64,000 nt of DNA from Nitrospira japonica (GTDB lineage: Bacteria; Nitrospirota; Nitrospiria; Nitrospirales; Nitrospiraceae), in assembly GCF_900169565.1 (NCBI RefSeq), contig NZ_LT828648.1:3136501-3200500 (forward strand), in the 5' to 3' direction. Below the pieces are notes generated by a model. That model made no database searches. It was not told where the DNA came from and worked only from the letters and a program-made list of their open reading frames with translations. Both the position numbers and the translations under genes were made by a program. The number at the start of each line of letters is the position of its first letter. The stretch's first letter is position 1. Positions 51,294 to 63,908 of the stretch are shown piece after piece.

Positions 51294-51442
51294 GCGCCCA
51301 CCTCGATGCTTTTCACACCTTCATTCACTCGCGGGCCTATGTATCACGGCCTGCATCGAGCGACAAGATCTCTTCACCACCCGTCCAAGCTGTGCTATCG
51401 TTGACCCCCTCTGCGTTCATGCCGGGTTGGAGGAGGTTACCT

Positions 51443-52858
51443 ATGGACGATCCGCACGCGCCTGAGCTTCCAAAGATGAGACGCTGTTTCCTCCACATGG
51501 CAGCGGTCTTTGTCTTCCTGGTCGTTGTCGCGTCGTCACTACTCATCGTCGAAACCTCAGTGCGGGCGGCGAACATCACGGAGCCGACGGAAAACTGGAT
51601 CGAGCAGATCCTTAAAGGTCTCTTCAAGCAGGACCAATATCCGGACCCGCTGCCCAAGCAGACACCGCTGCCTCTCCCGACGAAGTTCATGCAGCTCTCG
51701 CTGAGCGAAGCGATGGAGCTGTTCCTCAAGCAGAATCTCGATCTGATCATCGCCCACTACGGAATCGATGCCGCGAAAGGCAGACACATCACCGCGCGCC
51801 TGTTTCCCAATCCCACGCTGAACGTCAACACGTTGAGTTCCTACACTCAGGGTTGCCAGATGAGCACCTGCGGCGCCGTCGGACCGAGCGTCAGTCAACT
51901 GTTCGAAGTGGCCGGAAAAAGAGGGTACAGAATACGAGCGGCCGAGTTGGAGGTGCTGTCGGTCGAAGCACGGTTTGAAGACGCGGTTCGGCAATTGGGT
52001 TTTACACTCAAAGATAATTATTTTCGCGTGCAGCGACAGCGCGGACATCTCTCCATCGACCAACGCGCGCTGAACATTCTCATCAAATTGCTTCAGCCCG
52101 ACAAGAAAAAGCAATTCACCTCCGACCTCGAGCGGACCAGATTGGGACTACTCACCGTGAATACCGAAGCGGAGGTCCTGCGCGATCTGCAGCGGGTCGA
52201 AGATGCGTCGGGCGATCTCAGAGTCATGTTACGACTGTCACCGGACGTCGAGCTCGACCTGGAAACTCCTCTTATCTACCGCTCGTTGGACTTGAAGCTT
52301 GACGAGTTGATGGAGTATGCATCGCAAAACCGGCCGGACATCCGCGCGCTCCGGCTCGTGCGTGACAGACGGAAAACCCAGCTGCAACTGGCCAAAGTGA
52401 TTCCTTATCCGAACGTGACGGCGAACCTCGGATACGCGGTCCAAGGTCCCCACGGTCCGGACAACCAGCAGCAATGGGGCTTCGGTCTGAGTGTGCCGAT
52501 TCCGGTTTTCGATAGGAATCAAGGGGGCATCATGGAGGCGGAAGTCGCTTCAAAAGCCGCGGAAGCCGAAGTGGAAAAGGCGTTGATCCAGATGCAGAAC
52601 GATATCGGTGTCGCCTATCGCAAGGTCCTGCACTCAAAAAAACTCGTCGACGTGACGAATGGCGCCATCGATCGCGCCACGACGGTATTCCAATCCGCAC
52701 AAGAAGGCTACGCCAAGAACGAGATCGGCATTTTGGATTTGGAAAACTCGCGCCGGTCCTACGGCGACACGGAAATCAGCCACCTAGACGCGCTGTTCGG
52801 TTATTACGAGAATTTGCTGCTTCTGGAACGGTCGACCGGTCGCAACATCATGCTCTGA
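51443..52858 (+). CDS. TolC-like outer-membrane efflux protein (CzcC/CusC-like)
   Basis: A 471-aa outer-membrane channel protein. A signal peptide or membrane segment at residues 16-40 (AAVFVFLVVVASSLLIV) precedes two outer-membrane-efflux repeats; 'QLSLSEAMELFLKQNLDLIIAHYG' and 'LMEYASQNRPDIRALRLVRDRRKTQ' are typical. No adaptor or RND pump is adjacent; instead a Ca2+/H+ exchanger gene starts 22 bases downstream. GGAGGAGGTTACCT precedes the ATG. It may serve metal efflux with a partner elsewhere. Confidence 0.85.
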   Translation: MDDPHAPELPKMRRCFLHMAAVFVFLVVVASSLLIVETSVRAANITEPTENWIEQILKGLFKQDQYPDPLPKQTPLPLPTKFMQLSLSEAMELFLKQNLDLIIAHYGIDAAKGRHITARLFPNPTLNVNTLSSYTQGCQMSTCGAVGPSVSQLFEVAGKRGYRIRAAELEVLSVEARFEDAVRQLGFTLKDNYFRVQRQRGHLSIDQRALNILIKLLQPDKKKQFTSDLERTRLGLLTVNTEAEVLRDLQRVEDASGDLRVMLRLSPDVELDLETPLIYRSLDLKLDELMEYASQNRPDIRALRLVRDRRKTQLQLAKVIPYPNVTANLGYAVQGPHGPDNQQQWGFGLSVPIPVFDRNQGGIMEAEVASKAAEAEVEKALIQMQNDIGVAYRKVLHSKKLVDVTNGAIDRATTVFQSAQEGYAKNEIGILDLENSRRSYGDTEISHLDALFGYYENLLLLERSTGRNIML

Positions 52859-52880: not shown

Positions 52881-53939
52881 ATGAGTCTCAATTGGTTGCT
52901 CGTCTTCATCCCGCTCGCGCTGGGGTTGGACTGGTATGGAGCCAGCCCGATCGCCATCTTTTGCGTCTCGGCGCTCGCCATCGTGCCGCTGGCCGGCTTG
53001 ATGGGGCAGGCGACCGAGCAACTATCAATTTATGTCGGAGCGACGATCGGGGGATTGATGAGCGCCTCCCTCGGAAACGCCCCGGAGCTGATCATTTCTG
53101 GCTTCGCGTTGAAGGAAGGGCTCGGCGACATCGTCAAAGCGTCCATCACGGGTTCAATTCTTGGCAATCTCCTGTTTTCTCTCGGATTGTCCATGATTTT
53201 CGGAGGCTGGGGGCGCCAACGCCAGCAGTTCAATAAAACCGTCGCGGGCGTCAACGGAGGACTGCTGTTCGTGGCTGCGGTCGGCCTGCTCATTCCGGCG
53301 CTCTTTCATTTTGCCACCGGAAAGGAACGCGAGGTGAGCACGGAAATCGCGATCGTCCTCTTTTTCGCCTACATTGCGAGCCTGGTGTTCACGCTCAAAA
53401 CTCATCGCCAGCTCGTTGAAACGGAACCGGGACAGTACGGGCCGGGCAAGGAACAAGTGGAAGAGGAAGAGGGTCGCTGGAGCAAGGGAAAGGCCATTGC
53501 CGTGCTCGGAGGAGTCACGGTATTGATCGCCATCATGAGCGAAATGCTCGTCGGAGCGATCGAACCCGCCTCTGCTTCACTTGGTTTCACGCCGATTTTT
53601 GCCGGTGTGATTTTCCTGGCGCTGGTCGGCAATGCCGCGGAAGCGATGAATGCCGTGCGATTTGCCAGGAACGATCAGATGGATTTGTCGTTTGGCATTG
53701 CCGTAGGAGCCAGTACCCAGGTCGCGTTATTCGTCGCACCGGTCCTCGTATTCCTGGGATACGCCGTCGGACAGCCCATGAACCTCCATTTCACATACTT
53801 CGAAATTATCGCCATTACGCTCACCGTCGCGGTCGTCAGTCGTCTCACGTCCGACGGCGAGTGCAATTGGATGGAGGGCGTGATGCTGGTCTGTGTGTAC
53901 CTGATGTTTGCCATCGGCTTTTTCTTCTTGCCCGCCTGA
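52881..53939 (+). CDS. Ca2+/H+ exchanger (CAX family)
   Basis: A 352-aa inner-membrane antiporter with about 11 helices. The two alpha-repeats are GNAPELIISGFALKEG and GNAAEAMNAVRFARNDQMD, each with the ion-binding acidic residue, as in CAX/ChaA proteins. It exports Ca2+ (or Mn2+) in exchange for protons. It directly follows the TolC-like gene, so the two are likely co-transcribed. Confidence 0.92.
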   Translation: MSLNWLLVFIPLALGLDWYGASPIAIFCVSALAIVPLAGLMGQATEQLSIYVGATIGGLMSASLGNAPELIISGFALKEGLGDIVKASITGSILGNLLFSLGLSMIFGGWGRQRQQFNKTVAGVNGGLLFVAAVGLLIPALFHFATGKEREVSTEIAIVLFFAYIASLVFTLKTHRQLVETEPGQYGPGKEQVEEEEGRWSKGKAIAVLGGVTVLIAIMSEMLVGAIEPASASLGFTPIFAGVIFLALVGNAAEAMNAVRFARNDQMDLSFGIAVGASTQVALFVAPVLVFLGYAVGQPMNLHFTYFEIIAITLTVAVVSRLTSDGECNWMEGVMLVCVYLMFAIGFFFLPA

Positions 53940-54128: not shown

Positions 54129-54158
54129 TTGCACGAGAAGAGCTCCTTAAGGTACTAT
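54129..54158 (+). promoter_or_regulatory. Possible sigma-70 promoter of the metal-compartment cluster
   Basis: TTGCAC (54129-54134) and TACTAT (54153-54158) are 18 bp apart, 52 bp before the first DUF5132-like ATG. By eye. A GATAAT-containing stretch at 53967-53983 upstream is only a weak Fur-like match. Confidence 0.35.
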
Positions 54159-54209
54159 GCTCCCTCTCATTCGTCAGAATTCAATTCGGCCAGGTGGAAG
54201 GAGGACCCC

Positions 54210-54479
54210 ATGGAAGCGATTATCACTGGAGTGGTTGGAGTCGTCGCCGGAGCGGTCATCGCGCAGGCAGCTCCAAAAATCGTCGAAGGTCCTGCCTCGC
54301 TACTCCGCGGCCTCGCGCGTGAAGTGATCAAGGGCGGGCTGGTGATTCAGGATTCTGCCGCTTCGTTATTCTCCGGAAGCGGGAACGTCCTGAGCGATCT
54401 GGTTGCAGAAGCGAGGGCGGAACTGAAGTCCGGCTCGGCTGCAGCAACCGCACCGGCGAAAGTCGGGGCCCACAAGTAG
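54210..54479 (+). CDS. DUF5132-like protein 1 (89 aa)
   Basis: A hydrophobic N-terminal helix (AIITGVVGVVAGAVIAQAAP) is followed by a conserved helical core ('LLRGLAREVIKGGLVIQDSA' and 'LSDLVAEARAEL') seen in all three such genes in the window. The layout fits DUF5132, small helical proteins of unknown role that tend to sit beside HMA-domain and P-type ATPase genes. AAGGAGGACCCC precedes the ATG. First gene of the cluster; it may coat or shape a membrane, but that is inference. Confidence 0.75.
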   Translation: MEAIITGVVGVVAGAVIAQAAPKIVEGPASLLRGLAREVIKGGLVIQDSAASLFSGSGNVLSDLVAEARAELKSGSAAATAPAKVGAHK

Positions 54480-54665
54480 GCCTCGTGCGAGTGTTCCTCA
54501 GGGGCCAGCCTCATGGTCACTCACCATAGGTTCATCAGGCCCATCGACGGTTTTCCGAGGAAAGCCAGAGGCCCCCAAGGCATGCTGGCGAGCGCTGTAA
54601 CCGGTGTAGGGCGGAAGCACCTGTGTCCGGTCATGAGCACGAAGTGCCTGTAGAGGAGGACACCG

Positions 54666-54872
54666 ATGACGGATTTTCTTTCAGGAATAGGATCGGCGTT
54701 GCGTCCCTTGGCCAAGGAATTGATCAAGGGAGGGATCTATCTCTTCGATTCAGTATCCGAAGCGGCCTCCGAGGCAGGAGAGCAGTTCAAAGACCTTGTC
54801 GCTGAAGCCAAGACGGATCTGGCCAAACAGAACAGTGCGTCCGTTGCAAAAGAGCCTACCGAGGACGATTAG
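54666..54872 (+). CDS. DUF5132-like protein 2 (68 aa)
   Basis: The sequence 'LRPLAKELIKGGIYLFDSVS' followed by 'FKDLVAEAKTDL' is almost the same as in the third copy at 63603-63908 and similar to copy 1. It is amphipathic, lacks the long N-terminal helix of copy 1, and ends in an acidic tail. AGAGGA precedes the ATG. The role is unknown; clustering with the P-type ATPase is the clue. Confidence 0.75.
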   Translation: MTDFLSGIGSALRPLAKELIKGGIYLFDSVSEAASEAGEQFKDLVAEAKTDLAKQNSASVAKEPTEDD

Positions 54873-55061
54873 ACCGGCACCGCAATCCCCGAAAGGCACA
54901 CCTGCTCATGGCTGTCGATGTCGAGGAGTCGGCGCGTATGTCGGCGCATGTCGGATTGAGAGCGAACGACTGGATGGCATGGCATGACCGCCGGGGAAGA
55001 ATCCGGGGGGTGGCCCGGAAACCGGTAAGGCAGCACAGGGCTGAGGAGAGGAGATGAGACC

Positions 55062-57623
55062 ATGTCGGTCGAGCGGGCCACGGTTACGGTAATACATTCC
55101 TCACCCGGGCGTGTGCGTCTGAGGGTCAATCAGCTGAAGAGCAGCCGTCGATACGCCCAAGACCTTGAGCAGAGCCTCCAGTCCATTCCTTCCATCCGGC
55201 AAGTTTCACTGACTCCAAGCATAGGCAGCCTCGTCGTGCAGTTTGATTCGACAGTCACCCCATCGGCGGGCGTGCGACGATCGATGGCCTCGGCACTGGG
55301 CGTGGCGCCGCAGACGTTCGACGACCTGACATTCGACTCAGTTCCTCTTCGGCCGCAATACCACAAGCAGACCCCTCCGCATGATGCTTCCGCTGATGAA
55401 GCCGCACTCGTTCGGGCGGATCGTATCGGCTCACTGATTGATACCAGCATTGTGCACAGCCTCCAGGGGCGAGTGCGTTTGCGGGTTCCCGCGCTCAAGA
55501 CTTCTTCCGACCTGCCTCAGGGCATTGAACGGATCCTCCGAGATCAACCGGGTGTCATCGAGGTGAGCGTGAACGAATGGTCCGCAAGCGTGACCGTTTC
55601 ATACGATCCCTCGCTGTGGACGTCCGAGCGGCTCTGCGAGTGGGTCAGAGGGCTGAGCATCGAACAGGTCTCCGCGTATGAGCCCACCGGGACGAGATCG
55701 GGCCAGGCGGCGACCGAAGAGGAAACCTCCGGTGATGAGCTATGGTATTCCAGCGCAGGGATCGGCATGGCGCTGTTGCTCGAACCCCTGGCGGCTCCGT
55801 TGCTGCCCGTCTTACTCATCGCCAGCGCATTGCCGATGCTGAAACGGGCTCATCGCTCGCTGTCCGAAGACGGCAAATTGAACGTGGATGTGCTCGATGC
55901 TTCCGCCACCTCGCTCCTCGTCGTGCAAGCCAACTTCCCCATGGCTCTTTTCATGGTCTGGCTGATCAACGTCGCCGACTGGATCCGAGACCTGACGATG
56001 ATGCGGTCCAAGAAGGCCATCGAGGAGATCCTTGGATATCAACACATCGAAGCCTGGGTCGTGCGCGATGGACAGAAAATCCGTGTCAACGTGTCAGAGG
56101 TTCAACTCGGCGAAACCGTGGTGGTCTATCCGGGCGAGCGCATTGCCGTCGACGGCACCGTATTGAGCGGAAAGGCCCTGGTGGACCAGGCCGCTCTCAC
56201 CGGCGAATCGGTCCCGGTCGAGAAAGAGGCGGATCACCTCGTGTATGCCGCGACAGTCGTTCGCGAAGGGAAACTCTACATCCGAGCCGAGCGGATCGGA
56301 AGCGAAACCGAGGCCGGCCAGATTCTGCGCCTCGTGGAAGCCGCCCCTGCCCGTGAAACGAAGATCCAGAATTACGCCGTCAAGTGGGCGAATGATCTCG
56401 TGCCGTACAGCTTCATGGGCGCCGGTTTCGCAGCCGCCATCGGAGGCGGAATCCCCGGAGCGGCTGCGGTCCTGATCGTCGACTACGGAACCGGAATCCG
56501 GATCGCCGCCCCGACGACCGTGTTATCCGCCATGACGAAAGCGATTCGCAACGGCATTTTGATCAAGGGTGGACGGCACCTCGAAACCCTCGCAGAAGTC
56601 GATGCGGTCGTCTTTGATAAGACCGGCACGCTCACCACGGGACATCCCGATGTCATCGACGTGGTGACGTTCGAGTCCTCCACCTCCGACGAGGTCCTGG
56701 CATTGGCTGCCTCCGCGGAGCTGCGATTGACACATCCCGTTGCCGATGCCGTGGTCCGGGCGGCTGAGGCGAGACATCTGACGATCCCTGAGCGTACGGC
56801 TTCGGAATATACCCTGGGGCTCGGCGTCGAGGCGCTGGTCGACGACGCGGTCATTCTGGTCGGCAGTCCACGGTTCATGGCGCAGCGTGGAGTCGCGTTC
56901 TCACTGGACGCGGGAGAGCGCATCGCGGATCTGCAGCGACGCGCGGTTTCGCCGCTCTGCGTCGCGCGGAACGGGTCGATCATCGGCCTTCTGGCGATTT
57001 CCGATCCATTGCGGCCCGAAGCACAAGAGGTGGTTCAGGCGCTGCGTGCGCGCGGTATCAAGCACATCGTCATGCTGACGGGTGACCATAAGGACGTCGC
57101 GCGCCAGGTTGCCGACGAGATCGGTATCACGGAATACGAGGCGGAAGTATTCCCGGGTGAAAAATCAAAGACGGTCGAGCGTCTCCAGTGCCAAGGCTAT
57201 AAAGTGGCCGTGGTCGGGGACGGAATCAACGACTCTCCCATGTTGGCCTATGCCGATGTTGGCATCGCGGTCGAAGGGGGAACGGAGGCTGCGAGAGAAA
57301 CCGCGCCCGTCGTACTCTTACATGGCGGGCTCTGGAAGGTTCCGCTCGCGATCGATATCGGCCGGGAAACCGTCTCCTTGATCCAGCAAAACTGGAAAAT
57401 TATTTCAATTCCCAACACGATCGCCCTGTGCCTGGCATGCATCGGTGTGCTCGGACCGATCGGGGCCACGTTGCTCAGTAACGGGTCGGCGATCATCGCG
57501 ACGATGAACGGCCTTCGTCCGATTATGGAACAGCAACCCGTGAAGGTTCTCACGACGACGCGTGAAACGACCACACGTCTCCTTCCTGCTCCTGAGACCG
57601 AGAAGGTCATGCTCGCGGGATAA
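55062..57623 (+). CDS. P1B-like metal ATPase with two N-terminal HMA-like domains and no CPx motif
   Basis: An 853-aa P-type ATPase. Two ~75-residue HMA-like domains each carry an arginine triplet, SSPGRVRLR (R17, R19, R21) and SLQGRVRLR (R137, R139, R141), and lack the CxxC of usual HMA domains. The core has TGES, DKTGTLT with phosphorylation site D519, and GDGINDSPML. At the site of the CPC motif in the sixth membrane segment there is DYGTGIRIAAPT (D474), so no Cys or Pro coordinates metal there. A strong site (GAGGAGAGGAG) precedes the ATG. The next gene, 13 bases on, encodes a third such HMA-like domain. The architecture resembles FezB of ferrosome operons (P1B-6 type); the transported ion is likely iron or another divalent metal, by inference. 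Confidence 0.85.
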   Translation: MSVERATVTVIHSSPGRVRLRVNQLKSSRRYAQDLEQSLQSIPSIRQVSLTPSIGSLVVQFDSTVTPSAGVRRSMASALGVAPQTFDDLTFDSVPLRPQYHKQTPPHDASADEAALVRADRIGSLIDTSIVHSLQGRVRLRVPALKTSSDLPQGIERILRDQPGVIEVSVNEWSASVTVSYDPSLWTSERLCEWVRGLSIEQVSAYEPTGTRSGQAATEEETSGDELWYSSAGIGMALLLEPLAAPLLPVLLIASALPMLKRAHRSLSEDGKLNVDVLDASATSLLVVQANFPMALFMVWLINVADWIRDLTMMRSKKAIEEILGYQHIEAWVVRDGQKIRVNVSEVQLGETVVVYPGERIAVDGTVLSGKALVDQAALTGESVPVEKEADHLVYAATVVREGKLYIRAERIGSETEAGQILRLVEAAPARETKIQNYAVKWANDLVPYSFMGAGFAAAIGGGIPGAAAVLIVDYGTGIRIAAPTTVLSAMTKAIRNGILIKGGRHLETLAEVDAVVFDKTGTLTTGHPDVIDVVTFESSTSDEVLALAASAELRLTHPVADAVVRAAEARHLTIPERTASEYTLGLGVEALVDDAVILVGSPRFMAQRGVAFSLDAGERIADLQRRAVSPLCVARNGSIIGLLAISDPLRPEAQEVVQALRARGIKHIVMLTGDHKDVARQVADEIGITEYEAEVFPGEKSKTVERLQCQGYKVAVVGDGINDSPMLAYADVGIAVEGGTEAARETAPVVLLHGGLWKVPLAIDIGRETVSLIQQNWKIISIPNTIALCLACIGVLGPIGATLLSNGSAIIATMNGLRPIMEQQPVKVLTTTRETTTRLLPAPETEKVMLAG

Positions 57624-57636
57624 CGAGGACGTCCCA

Positions 57637-58314
57637 ATGGCCATCGATGATAGGAGCGTATCCGATGTGCCACTTGCGGGAGGCACGGATCGCTCCGGCG
57701 AGCCCGGCCCTGCAGCGGGTGAAGATTGCCGTGAGGGTGCGGGACTCGACAGACCTTTGGCCGGTACCAGGGTCATCCATTCACTCCCCGGTCGAGTCCG
57801 GCTGCGTGTTCCCGCGCTCAAGAGCCATTCCCACCTAGAAAAAGGCCTCCAAGCCCTGCTCTCGGATCAAACCGGTGTGATCGAAGCCACCGTGAACAGT
57901 CGCTGCCAGAGCGTGACGGTGATGTACGATCCCGCACTGTGGAGCCTGGATTCGCTGTGCGCGTTTCATCGCCGTCTCACTCGCGAAGAACTCGAACGAC
58001 GCGCATCGATCGCATTGGCGGACGAGGAGGGTGCGGCCACCTCGCCGCCGACGGAATGGTTACAGCCGTGGCGATTCTTGACCAAGACCGAAGAGAACCC
58101 TCATTCCAGCGGGGCGGTTCAGACACAAGTCAGATCAGGCTACTGGACGGCAGGCTATATCAGCATGGTTGTGGGAGCGGTTCTGGTTCCCGTGCCCTTG
58201 GTTCCAGGTATTCCGCTCCTGATGTTGGCGAGTTACTTTTTTGCCAAAGCCAGCGTATCGAAACCGGGAAATGGACCTGAATTTGACGGGCACGCTACCA
58301 AACCAACAGAGTAG
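57637..58314 (+). CDS. HMA-like membrane protein, partner of the P-type ATPase
   Basis: A 225-aa protein. After a polar N-terminal stretch, an HMA-like domain carries SLPGRVRLR (R53, R55, R57), closely matching the second domain of the ATPase ('VPALK' and the downstream 'SVTVMYDPALW' are shared). A C-terminal hydrophobic segment (GYISMVVGAVLVPVPLVPGIPLLMLASYFF) forms one or two membrane helices, so the domain is tethered. GAGGA precedes the ATG, and the 13-base gap means coupling to the ATPase gene. Similar to the FezC-type component of ferrosome operons. Confidence 0.75.
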   Translation: MAIDDRSVSDVPLAGGTDRSGEPGPAAGEDCREGAGLDRPLAGTRVIHSLPGRVRLRVPALKSHSHLEKGLQALLSDQTGVIEATVNSRCQSVTVMYDPALWSLDSLCAFHRRLTREELERRASIALADEEGAATSPPTEWLQPWRFLTKTEENPHSSGAVQTQVRSGYWTAGYISMVVGAVLVPVPLVPGIPLLMLASYFFAKASVSKPGNGPEFDGHATKPTE

Positions 58315-58492: not shown

Positions 58493-59137
58493 GTGAAAGT
58501 CCTACATCTGTTTCTGAAACGCTCCCATACGCATGAACGGCTCTGCGCTGTTTCGGATGGCGTATATGCGATCGCGCTCACCCTGCTCGTATTGGATCTC
58601 AAGGTGCCAGAAGTCCGCGGGATCACGAATTCGGAGTTGACGACGGACCTCGTCGAGCAGCTCCCAAACTTTGTCGCCTATGTGGTCGCATTTTTTCTGG
58701 TCGCCCGCTTCTGGATCAACCACCATCGGATCTTCCAGTCGGCAGCCCTGTGTGACGAAAAAGCTCTCTCATTGAACCTCGCCCATCTGTTTTTCATTTC
58801 GCTGACCTCGTACACAGCGTCCTTGATCGGCCACTATGAGGGAGATCGTATTGCGACCATCATCTTTTCCTCGAATCTTGGATTGTCCTCATTGACGCTG
58901 AGCATACTTGGGCACTACGTGCTGGAGAGAAAGGAATGGCGGACAAAGGAGTCTGGCGGAACGTGGGTGAAGATTTCTTGGTGGACGGCTTACACAGCCC
59001 CTGGTGTGGCCTTAGCGAGCATTCTGGTGTCCTTCCTGAGCATTAATGCTGCGCTGCTTCTCTGGCTTGTCGTGCCGTTGAGAGACCTGATGCTTCTGAA
59101 TCGCCTCTCATCCCCCCATGTGCATCAAGAGCCGTAA
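58493..59137 (+). CDS. TMEM175-like potassium channel family protein
   Basis: A 214-aa membrane protein with about six helices. The family signature appears as 'VSDGVYAIALTLLVLDLKVP' near residue 22 (FSDG in most members; here VSDG), followed by 'WINHHRIFQS'. Bacterial TMEM175 homologues form K+-selective leak channels. A GTG is the start; no good ribosome-binding site is seen. It lies 178 bp behind the ATPase cluster and is probably separate. Confidence 0.85.
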   Translation: MKVLHLFLKRSHTHERLCAVSDGVYAIALTLLVLDLKVPEVRGITNSELTTDLVEQLPNFVAYVVAFFLVARFWINHHRIFQSAALCDEKALSLNLAHLFFISLTSYTASLIGHYEGDRIATIIFSSNLGLSSLTLSILGHYVLERKEWRTKESGGTWVKISWWTAYTAPGVALASILVSFLSINAALLLWLVVPLRDLMLLNRLSSPHVHQEP

Positions 59138-61211: not shown

Positions 61212-62744
61212 TTAAAAGATAAGCCGCACTGACAAAAACATGTAGCTGGCATTTTTGTCGTTAGGCGAGCCAGCCACCCCCTGGCTGAGAAGATTGGAGT
61301 AATAGCTTCCTTTGATGAGATAGAGCCATCCTCCCTCCACGATGAGATTGGGACCGGCCGTCCAGGCCAAGCGCGTGTCGAGATCCGACCCCAGAGAAGT
61401 ACCGGCCTGTCCGGTCTGGTCTTGCAGATCGGCGCCCTGGAATTCGTCTTTGGCCTGCGCCAAGAACCAAAACCGCTGTTTGAAAGAGGCGCGAAGATTG
61501 TTCACCGGTTGCACCGATAGGACATACCCCGGTGAGTTGATATTCGACCGCTTGAACAGCCCCCAAATTCCCGTCGGAGTGAAGGAAAATCCATAGGTGC
61601 CGAAGAGCGGGTCAAAGCGGCCATTCTGATTGTCGTTCGGATTCTTATCGCCGCTGGCATAGTCATATTCAAGGCGAATGGCCGGTTTCCACCGAACGTT
61701 GAACGTGTAGCCGAATTCTCCATGCTGAAAGAATGAGAACGTCGTCAGGGGAGGGCCGCCGGGCTGGAGCGCCGATTGGCCGAACTGATAGGCTGATTCG
61801 ATCTCGTAATCGAACGCCCCGGCCGCCTCCGGCTGGAACAGCCGAAACCCCATGGTCGTGAGATGCGGGCGCCGGCCTGTGGTGATTTGTTCCTGGGAAC
61901 GACCGTTGATGCCCTGCCCCTCGGCGGTTTGGGTCAGCGTAAAGGTATAGAGCTCGGTATGGAGCCAGGGCCTGCGCTGATTGAGGTATGACAGTCCAAA
62001 GAAGTTTGTATGCGAATCCAGCGTGTCGGGGGAGGTCTGCTGATTTTTGACCGGACGCATGGCGAACGCCCGCACTTGCCAGTCGGTGGCTTTTCCCCAC
62101 GACCAGTGGGCGCCAACAAACGAATATGGGACATTGCTGTAGAAGCTTCGCGCAATCAGCCGGCTCTTTCCAAACGCTTGGGTAAACTTGCCGATCTGCA
62201 GTTCGGTCGGCTGACCTGATCCCAGAAAATTATCTGACCACAGACTGCCATAGAGCTGAAGCATGTCGTTCCGATTCTCCATGTTGCCGCTGACGATCAC
62301 ACCGTAGTTGTACAACGGGCGCGCGTCCAGAAACTCCGCGTGGAATTTAAACGGCTTATAGCGCATCTCCATGTTCACGTCCGTGCGTTCCGAGAATTGC
62401 GCCCCGCCGGTCGTCTCATTCTTCTTGACCGGCTGACTGTAGGACTCATAGCGGGTCCGGAAATCAACGCTCAGATGGAGCCAGTCCGGGACGTGGAGCG
62501 CCTGATCAAGATGGAATTGCGATTGAGGGAGGCGTACAGGCGACCCATCCGACATCACGATGTCGTGGAGCCGTTGCACAAGAGGGCCGAACCGCGGTGA
62601 TTCTTCTTCGGATGGCGACGATTCTAAAATTCGTGCAGAGTTCTCGCTCGGCGGATTCGCCGGAGAGTTCTCTTCAGCCCATGCCGCCTGAACCGTGAGC
62701 GTGCTGCAGAGAAGGAGGAAGCGCAGAAGGTAACGGAGGACCAT
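61212..62744 (-). CDS. Outer-membrane porin, alginate-export family-like
   Basis: A 510-aa protein with a signal peptide (YLLRFLLLCSTLTVQAAWA, cut about residue 23), a short linker, and a long beta-strand-rich domain with 'LSVDFRTRYESYSQ', 'LQIGKFTQAFGKSRLIARSF' and a C-terminal Phe (SVRLIF), typical of barrels such as AlgE/alginate-export proteins. It probably forms an 18-strand channel for small anions or sugars. The ATG at 62744 is used rather than an upstream TTG. The sulfatase lies on the same strand downstream. Confidence 0.8.
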   Translation of the reverse strand: MVLRYLLRFLLLCSTLTVQAAWAEENSPANPPSENSARILESSPSEEESPRFGPLVQRLHDIVMSDGSPVRLPQSQFHLDQALHVPDWLHLSVDFRTRYESYSQPVKKNETTGGAQFSERTDVNMEMRYKPFKFHAEFLDARPLYNYGVIVSGNMENRNDMLQLYGSLWSDNFLGSGQPTELQIGKFTQAFGKSRLIARSFYSNVPYSFVGAHWSWGKATDWQVRAFAMRPVKNQQTSPDTLDSHTNFFGLSYLNQRRPWLHTELYTFTLTQTAEGQGINGRSQEQITTGRRPHLTTMGFRLFQPEAAGAFDYEIESAYQFGQSALQPGGPPLTTFSFFQHGEFGYTFNVRWKPAIRLEYDYASGDKNPNDNQNGRFDPLFGTYGFSFTPTGIWGLFKRSNINSPGYVLSVQPVNNLRASFKQRFWFLAQAKDEFQGADLQDQTGQAGTSLGSDLDTRLAWTAGPNLIVEGGWLYLIKGSYYSNLLSQGVAGSPNDKNASYMFLSVRLIF

Positions 62745-62896
62745 GCTGAACGCCCTGTCACGCGGCAATCACAGCCATACGCCTGCCGCACCAACAAACA
62801 CTCATATTCCTTGTTCTATACCGACCTACCGGTGGAAAGGTGCCGCTCGGTTGTGATCATCGAGATGGCCATACACAATTGGCGACTTGGTTATAG

Positions 62897-63602: not shown

Positions 63603-63908
63603 TCATCGAGACCCTCTAATCGGTACACGCGTCTTGCGCCGACGACGGCTCTGATCGCCGTTCTTTTCGACTTCCCCGTTCGCTTCTTCTACTGGTGAAG
63701 CTTCCGCTTTTGCTGACGCCTCTTCTGCAGGAGGCTGACTGCTCTGTTGAGCCAGATCTGCTCTGGCTTCGGCGACGATATCTTTAAACTTCTCACCGGC
63801 CTCCAAGGCAACCTCGGATACTGTATCAAACAGGTAGATCCCCCCTTTGATCAATTCCTTGGCCAAAGGACGCAACGTCGCTCCTATACCTGAAAGAATA
63901 TCAGCCAT
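63603..63908 (-). CDS. DUF5132-like protein 3 (101 aa)
   Basis: The core 'LRPLAKELIKGGIYLFDTVS' and 'FKDIVAEARADLAQQ' is nearly identical to copy 2 at 54666, and the genes also align well at DNA level, so this is a recent duplicate. A further tail of about 40 residues is acidic then strongly basic (SRRRRKTRVPIRGSR), perhaps binding membranes or nucleic acid. GAGAGGA precedes the ATG. The gene lies about 9 kb from the cluster on the opposite strand. Confidence 0.75.
   Translation of the reverse strand: MADILSGIGATLRPLAKELIKGGIYLFDTVSEVALEAGEKFKDIVAEARADLAQQSSQPPAEEASAKAEASPVEEANGEVEKNGDQSRRRRKTRVPIRGSR

Follow-up and report, generated by a model that had tools for sequence, protein, structure and literature searches.

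A locus of the Nitrospira japonica genome, located within a stretch of 64,000 nucleotides (contig NZ_LT828648.1, forward-strand positions 3,136,501 to 3,200,500; hereafter the window), encodes two small DUF5132 proteins, a P1B-like ATPase in which the HMA_2 domain occurs twice and a partner protein that combines a third HMA_2 domain with a DUF454-like end, all on the plus strand. Originally predicted to be a ferrosome-like system, it is a new variant inside the group that holds the ferrosome and PacL-type pumps, and the ferrosome label fails on the features tested. The gene set is previously undescribed and more likely concerned with calcium than with iron. On the strength of its gene content, the clade of its ATPase, the loss of soft ligands from the fourth and sixth transmembrane helices (TM4 and TM6) of this pump and its recurrent neighbors, we propose with moderate confidence that the locus specifies a platform in the membrane that handles a hard divalent cation, in all likelihood Ca2+, and is tied to a Ca2+/H+ exchanger of the Cax family and a carbonic anhydrase. 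Since other genera and phyla have this set of genes as well, the locus is not a product of chance.

P1B ATPases are known to pump transition metals. The ATPase of the window has intact DKTGT, TGE, HP and GDGxND motifs, which are also kept in its homologs, and it belongs to the heavy-metal P-type group of NCBIfam, without an exact equivalog, while its HMA_2 score in Pfam reaches 75.6 bits. Its AlphaFold model (mean predicted local distance difference test score, pLDDT, 77.8) shows eight membrane helices, with a helix break at residues 473-475 in the region of the ion site, and finds its best full-length fold match in the copper P1B ATPase 7r0g (template modeling score 0.81 by target). As originally predicted, there is no CPC motif at the metal site, which reads DYGTGIRIAAPT. 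The resulting combination of DYGTG in TM4 and SN in TM6 differs from that of the CtpC-like pumps encoded with DUF1490, which have CPC and HN, and from that of FezB-like pumps, which have DYSC and HN in Vibrio, Azospirillum and Arcobacter, and DYAC and HN in Cereibacter. Scanning named genomes for the TM4 pattern yielded 47 loci, found in Nitrospirota, cyanobacteria and, as single GTG-type members, in Planctomycetota, Armatimonadota, Thermodesulfobacteriota and other phyla. All 39 pumps of other types in the comparison have the TM4 Cys, which is replaced by Thr in the GTG type, an invariance that is partly due to selection because the scan pattern demanded D-x-GTG. Free of this selection is the result for TM6, whose His is always kept in FezB-like and CtpC-like pumps but replaced by Asn or Ser in 50/50 GTG-type pumps with that column (51 aligned), with the Asn of the HN motif being retained. 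GTG-type pumps also have a conserved Met in an earlier helix (M298), and D474 of the window ATPase is common to FezB-like pumps. TM4 and TM6 of the GTG type thus retain Asp, Thr, Asn and Ser, with no Cys or His, so that, judged by coordination chemistry, the ion site appears to favor a hard cation.

In a phylogenetic tree in which FezB-like pumps of Vibrio, Azospirillum, Arcobacter and Cereibacter took the place of characterized FezB, the GTG-type pumps form a well-supported clade of their own that is sister to the FezB-like DYSC pumps (joint support 98), and both lie together with the CtpC-like pumps within a larger HMA_2-bearing clade (support 99). Both this placement and the N-terminal HMA_2 domain with its Arg triplet make the window ATPase a member of the HMA_2-bearing, P1B-like clade. 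The P1B-6 group, to which it had initially been assigned, is defined by a conserved HN motif in TM6 (PMC9374683). The proposed kinship with this group and with FezB-like pumps is upheld by the tree, but the window ATPase lacks the HN motif and stands in a separate GTG clade. Plasmid pMRAD05 of Methylobacterium radiotolerans (L168:2632-5085; L numbers denote loci) encodes a long-branch GTG-like ATPase with the motifs ADLGTGIR and NNASAL. Moreover, in several cyanobacterial loci (L086, L088, L092, L096 and L103), a second, tandem HMA_2 ATPase lies upstream of the GTG ATPase. Its TM4 reads DFGHALR or DFSHSIR, and it has GEGIND instead of GDGIND, features that suggest that this pump is modified or acts as a partner.

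The link to calcium comes from the genomic neighborhood. We compared GTG loci that are flanked on each side by 5 kb or more of sequence (n=29) with CPC-type ATPase loci of the same phylum (n=19). A Cax-family gene lies within 6 kb in 20/29 GTG loci and 1/19 CPC-type loci (Fisher 1.4e-5, a value that overstates independence, as the counted loci are related). HMA_2 proteins are encoded nearby in 24/29 and 0/19 cases and DUF5132 proteins in 12/29 and 0/19, respectively. Cax is situated 1.1 kb upstream of the ATPase in the window and generally upstream in Nitrospira types; the Magnetominusculus group has two copies directly upstream, and cyanobacteria have the gene downstream. Because of these different arrangements, there look to be at least three separate associations of Cax with GTG ATPases. 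The cyanobacterial clusters continue with a P2-type ATPase that has PEGLP and NLVTD motifs, and a P2-type (PEGLP) ATPase with its own N-terminal Arg-type HMA_2 domain is encoded together with DUF5132 and HMA_2 proteins in other Nitrospirota. A hard cation is the theme common to both classes of pump, and Ca2+ would be the simplest choice. These P2-type loci of Nitrospirota (L051-L055, L057, L059 and L062-L068) often continue with an S-adenosylmethionine synthetase gene, and L057 includes TerC.

A second recurrent neighbor is the LCIB carbonic anhydrase. A family search of 147 genomes identified GTG-type ATPases in 9 and LCIB in 8, with LCIB occurring in 5/9 genomes with a GTG ATPase and 3/138 without one (Fisher 1.2e-5). 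In all five genomes that have both, the LCIB and ATPase genes are no more than about 10 kb apart, whereas the three remaining LCIB genes have no cassette genes around them. In the Nitrospirota relatives L080-L082, LCIB is encoded between Cax and the DUF5132 genes, in the short contig L080 just before the latter. The window genome has a single LCIB gene, located beside a third DUF5132 gene (DUF5132-C), and all in all, DUF5132, the HMA_2 partner, Cax and the carbonic anhydrase are found there within 13 kb. Its three DUF5132 matches all lie inside the window, and its three HMA_2 matches all belong to the ATPase/partner locus. The conserved set thus extends beyond the limits of 54129-58314 originally proposed, with Cax upstream and TMEM175 and the carbonic anhydrase downstream, and the first of the genes within these limits most likely begins at 54210, at an ATG preceded by GGAGGA, rather than at 54129.

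The gene order of the cassette is the same in the relatives L211-L215. The genes for a TolC-like protein and Cax come first, then those for a ParA-type ATPase and a protein of ~100 residues, two DUF5132 proteins, the ATPase and the HMA_2 partner, in most cases TMEM175, and a conserved glycine-rich protein of 111-138 residues. A carbonic anhydrase is included in four of them (L211, L213-L215), and in L212, the contig breaks off within Cax, leaving the TolC-like gene out of view. The TolC-type gene adjoins Cax in L081, L082, L211 and L213-L215, and the architecture of the partner, HMA_2 with a DUF454-like end, is the same in Magnetominusculus-type loci. The glycine-rich protein, which has a central hydrophobic stretch and no Pfam match, accompanies the cassette in eight genomes, the copy of the window genome being located 0.2 kb beyond the window (L198:1214-1582). 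The partner of ParA has a basic N-terminus, the motif MAKRxTIxxNPLD and a hydrophobic C-terminal helix. The ParA pair is divergent and found near Cax and DUF5132 in L211 (12403-13547), L213 (12393-13490), L212, L214, L215 and L081; it is absent at the window locus, and nothing in the window genome convincingly matches the small partner. Because carboxysomes are positioned by ParA and a small partner (PMC13052382), the cassette of these relatives may, by analogy, serve a positioned cargo.

The original prediction had cast the DUF5132 proteins as shaping or anchoring parts, and this idea gains support from their resemblance to PacL scaffolds. Comparing DUF5132 (15 proteins) with DUF1490/PacL (7 proteins) by hhalign gave a score of 29.5 (E 1.5e-4), with column-shuffled controls ranging from 7.5 to 14.6 (n=20), and a small protein of another Nitrospirota genome weakly matches both families. 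Homology between DUF5132 and PacL is likely but not proven, and DUF5132 may plausibly form a third branch of PacL-like scaffolds. PMC9374683 describes PacL proteins as the scaffold of mycobacterial P-ATPase efflux platforms that is needed for pump stability and associates DUF1490 and DUF6110 proteins with pumps of the P1B6-like and P1B6 types; DUF5132 goes unmentioned in the passages found. PacL proteins are characterized by a membrane helix, a helix rich in Glu and Ala and a metal-binding motif at the C-terminus. The helix region of the window proteins resembles DUF1490. A hydrophobic N-terminus, rich in Gly and Ala and followed by the helix K..IKGG...DLVAEA, is seen in the PacL-like DUF5132-A and not in DUF5132-B. 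The two HMA_2 domains of the ATPase show a beta-beta-alpha-beta-beta-alpha order in its model, with the Arg triplet of each on the second strand. The Arg triplets of all three HMA_2 domains are as originally predicted, and no CxxC motif is present; the model of the partner (mean pLDDT 60.8) is of low confidence outside its HMA domain. As a lead only, we note that these Arg-type domains presumably resemble those known as CoBaHMA (conserved basic residue HMA) in work on calcyanin.

From these observations, we infer a possible substrate, direction of transport, scaffold role and compartment. DUF5132 proteins would act as PacL-like scaffolds, whereas the Arg-triplet HMA_2 domains of the ATPase and its partner would be non-metal-binding adaptors that dock on the scaffold helix or on anionic lipid, and together they would cluster the P1B-derived ATPase into membrane patches. 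With Cys and His swapped for Asp, Thr, Asn and Ser at its ion site, the pump would spend ATP to move Ca2+ or a similar cation. Cax would swap Ca2+ for protons, the cytoplasmic carbonic anhydrase would balance the linked proton/bicarbonate chemistry, and TMEM175 may balance charge. With Cax and the LCIB enzyme at work next to the pump, the job of the system would be the handling of Ca2+ and linked pH or carbonate, with export from the cytosol and the filling of an internal space both possible. A bolder and rather doubtful extension of this model is that in Nitrospira-type and cyanobacterial lineages, the cassette builds an intracellular compartment or membrane domain for calcium (carbonate) that is positioned by ParA. 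This would be a ferrosome-like organelle that employs PacL-like scaffolds, Cax and carbonic anhydrase and whose P1B-derived pump was re-tooled from iron to calcium. Intracellular carbonates occur in cyanobacteria and magnetotactic Nitrospirota. However, GTG-type pumps are also found in some genera that are not known to us to form carbonates, and the pump therefore does not mark this trait.

Several observations weigh against a calcium platform with PacL-like scaffolds. The Asp/Asn/Thr site could also suit Mg2+, Mn2+ or Fe2+, and the relatedness of the counted loci weakens the neighbor statistics. The hhalign probability for the DUF5132-PacL match is just 51%, DUF5132-B has no predicted membrane helix, and the His-rich tail of PacL is found on no window copy. 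In the window, a terminator-like and a promoter-like site separate Cax from DUF5132-A, so that the two may not be co-transcribed, and several cyanobacterial loci, including those of Gloeomargaritales, have no Cax nearby. Finally, reduced loci (G127/L199, L216, L217) contain DUF5132, HMA_2 and ATPase genes alone, without Cax or carbonic anhydrase; because just these genes are kept, they are the core of the cassette.

Among the alternatives, the locus could serve a hard cation other than Ca2+ (Mg2+, Mn2+, Sr/Ba) or act in inorganic carbon and pH homeostasis, with Ca2+ exchange being incidental. Its ion site suits several hard cations, and the presence of TMEM175 and a carbonic anhydrase suggests a balancing of pH and charge, but the specific recurrence of Cax-family genes and the NLVTD-type P2 ATPases in cyanobacteria make this distinctly unlikely. 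An unlikely alternative, too, is a PacL/CtpC-type platform that exports a toxic transition metal (Zn, Cd, Mn, Ni) through the TolC-like protein. It would agree with the similarity of DUF5132 to PacL, with the position of the CtpC-type pumps in the same HMA_2 ATPase clade and with a weak NCBIfam match of the TolC-like protein to IhpA, a divalent metal exporter subunit. Yet the pump has neither CPC nor HN, and no conserved Cys or His at all in TM4 or TM6, on which grounds we rejected its assignment as a CtpC-type pump; besides, the DUF5132 proteins have no His-rich metal-binding tail, and no metalloregulator was noticed beside the genes.

The ferrosome-like iron store originally proposed, in which the ATPase would load Fe2+ into membrane-bound granules with the DUF5132 proteins as FezA-like shaping parts, is the least probable of these readings and appears very doubtful to us. 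It is consistent with the sister position of the GTG clade, the shared D474 and the HMA_2 and small glycine-rich proteins common to both systems, and in the relatives, the ParA pair is a hint that a cargo is being positioned. Against it, the GTG type has lost the TM4 Cys and TM6 His of FezB-like pumps, and the neighbors of the locus are Cax and carbonic anhydrase rather than iron genes. FezC is a DUF4405-like cytochrome in ferrosome systems of the D. magneticus type (PMC10979944), and none of the three DUF4405 matches in the window genome lies within 750 kb of the locus. FezB-like DYSC ATPases were detected neither in the window genome nor among the top-ranking matches from 118 genomes of Nitrospirota. 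Likewise, the window does not reproduce the six-gene alphaproteobacterial fez cluster with its HMA and YtxH-like proteins when compared with an Azospirillum-type cluster; in R. palustris, the six-gene set is RPA2333-2338 (PMC12016538). We thus rejected ferrosome membership on the basis of the TM4/TM6 motifs, the tree and the gene context. A FezB-like (DYAC/HN) cluster on the conjugative Cereibacter plasmid pORIO2 (L166) is flanked by FeoA and TonB-dependent receptors and represents a possible mobile ferrosome-type locus.

A calcium-linked context is not what a specialist would expect for such a pump. If the calcium platform proposed here is real, it would amount to a change of substrate class inside P1B, in which Cys/His ligands were lost in the company of calcium exchangers and carbonic anhydrase, and a single module of scaffold and Arg-type HMA_2 domains would tie together ferrosomes, mycobacterial effluxosomes and calcium handling. 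It would also provide candidate genes for the concentration of calcium in the cells of bacteria, cyanobacteria and Nitrospirota among them.

Features of the locus and its surroundings (window positions unless stated otherwise).
Feature	Position	Strand	Remarks
OEP, TolC-type outer membrane efflux protein	51392..52858	+	Pfam PF02321; ends 22 bp before Cax
Cax, Ca2+/H+ exchanger, Na_Ca_ex family	52881..53939	+	TIGR00378 350.6 bits (cut-off 211); PF01699
DUF5132-A, 89 aa	54210..54479	+	PF17195 24.9 bits, just below 25-bit cut-off
DUF5132-B, 68 aa	54666..54872	+	Pfam 40.2 bits; acidic helix EAGEQFKDLVAEAK
GTG-type P1B-like ATPase, 853 aa	55062..57623	+	TIGR01525, PF00122, PF00702, PF19991
HMA_2 domain 1 of ATPase	55077..55256	+	46.9 bits; R17/R19/R21 on predicted strand 17-22
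HMA_2 domain 2 of ATPase	55446..55616	+	33.7 bits; R137/R139/R141 on predicted strand 137-141
TM4 site DYGTGIRIAAPT, residues 474-485 (D474-T485) of ATPase	56481..56516	+	replaces CPC or DYSC
Phosphorylation site D519-KTGT of ATPase	56616..56630	+	conserved among homologs
TM6 site SNGSAIIATMN, residues 806-816 of ATPase	57477..57509	+	SN in place of P1B-6 HN
Partner, HMA_2 and C-terminal DUF454-like membrane hairpin	57637..58314	+	HMA_2 32.2 bits; weak DUF454 match, 26.4 bits; R53/R55/R57
TMEM175-type K+ channel homolog	58493..59137	+	PF06736 93.2 bits; also in L211, L213, L214
Alginate_exp-type outer membrane porin	61212..62768	-	PF13372
DUF5132-C	63603..63908	-	PF17195 37.6 bits; beside LCIB carbonic anhydrase
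LCIB carbonic anhydrase	genome 3201196-3201888, 0.7 kb past window end	-	63% identical to L081 gene

Among the remaining features, a homolog of the Alginate_exp porin adjoins the carbonic anhydrase in one relative (L213:5039-6604), and an arylsulfatase-type gene (PF00884, 59266-60804, minus strand) lies between TMEM175 and the porin gene, without being seen as a conserved member of the cassette. No RNA genes were found in the window, and the short repeats of the locus are ordinary. A viral origin of the partner protein was rejected, as viral contigs yielded no relatives.

The window locus shares features with several known systems. The CoBaHMA domains and calcyanin of CaCO3-forming cyanobacteria may be comparable in having an HMA-like domain with conserved basic residues and a link to calcium; a simple pattern check of the GTG loci for a calcyanin-like Gly-zipper gave a single match, inside the L087 ATPase, and no such protein. 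Like the window locus, fez clusters encode an Arg-type N-terminal HMA_2 domain that replaces CxxC, separate HMA_2 partners and small Gly-rich proteins, and FezB-like and GTG-type pumps are sisters in the tree with a common TM4 Asp. They differ in that FezB-like pumps have DYSC and HN and GTG-type pumps DYGTG and SN or NN, and in that the window has no DUF4405 cytochrome and replaces the iron context by a Ca2+ exchanger and a carbonic anhydrase. PacL-CtpC effluxosomes of mycobacteria similarly combine a small scaffold-like protein with an adjacently encoded pump carrying an Arg-type HMA_2 domain, and the helices of DUF5132 and DUF1490 both end in DxVAEAK/R. In contrast to these effluxosomes, the GTG pump has neither CPC nor HN, DUF5132 lacks the His-rich metal-binding tail, and the window locus has several DUF5132 copies and an extra HMA_2/DUF454 partner. 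The P2-type clusters of other Nitrospirota, finally, use the same DUF5132/HMA_2 module, with HMA_2 fused to the pump, but combine it with a PEGLP-containing P2-type pump and with S-adenosylmethionine synthetase and TerC as neighbors.

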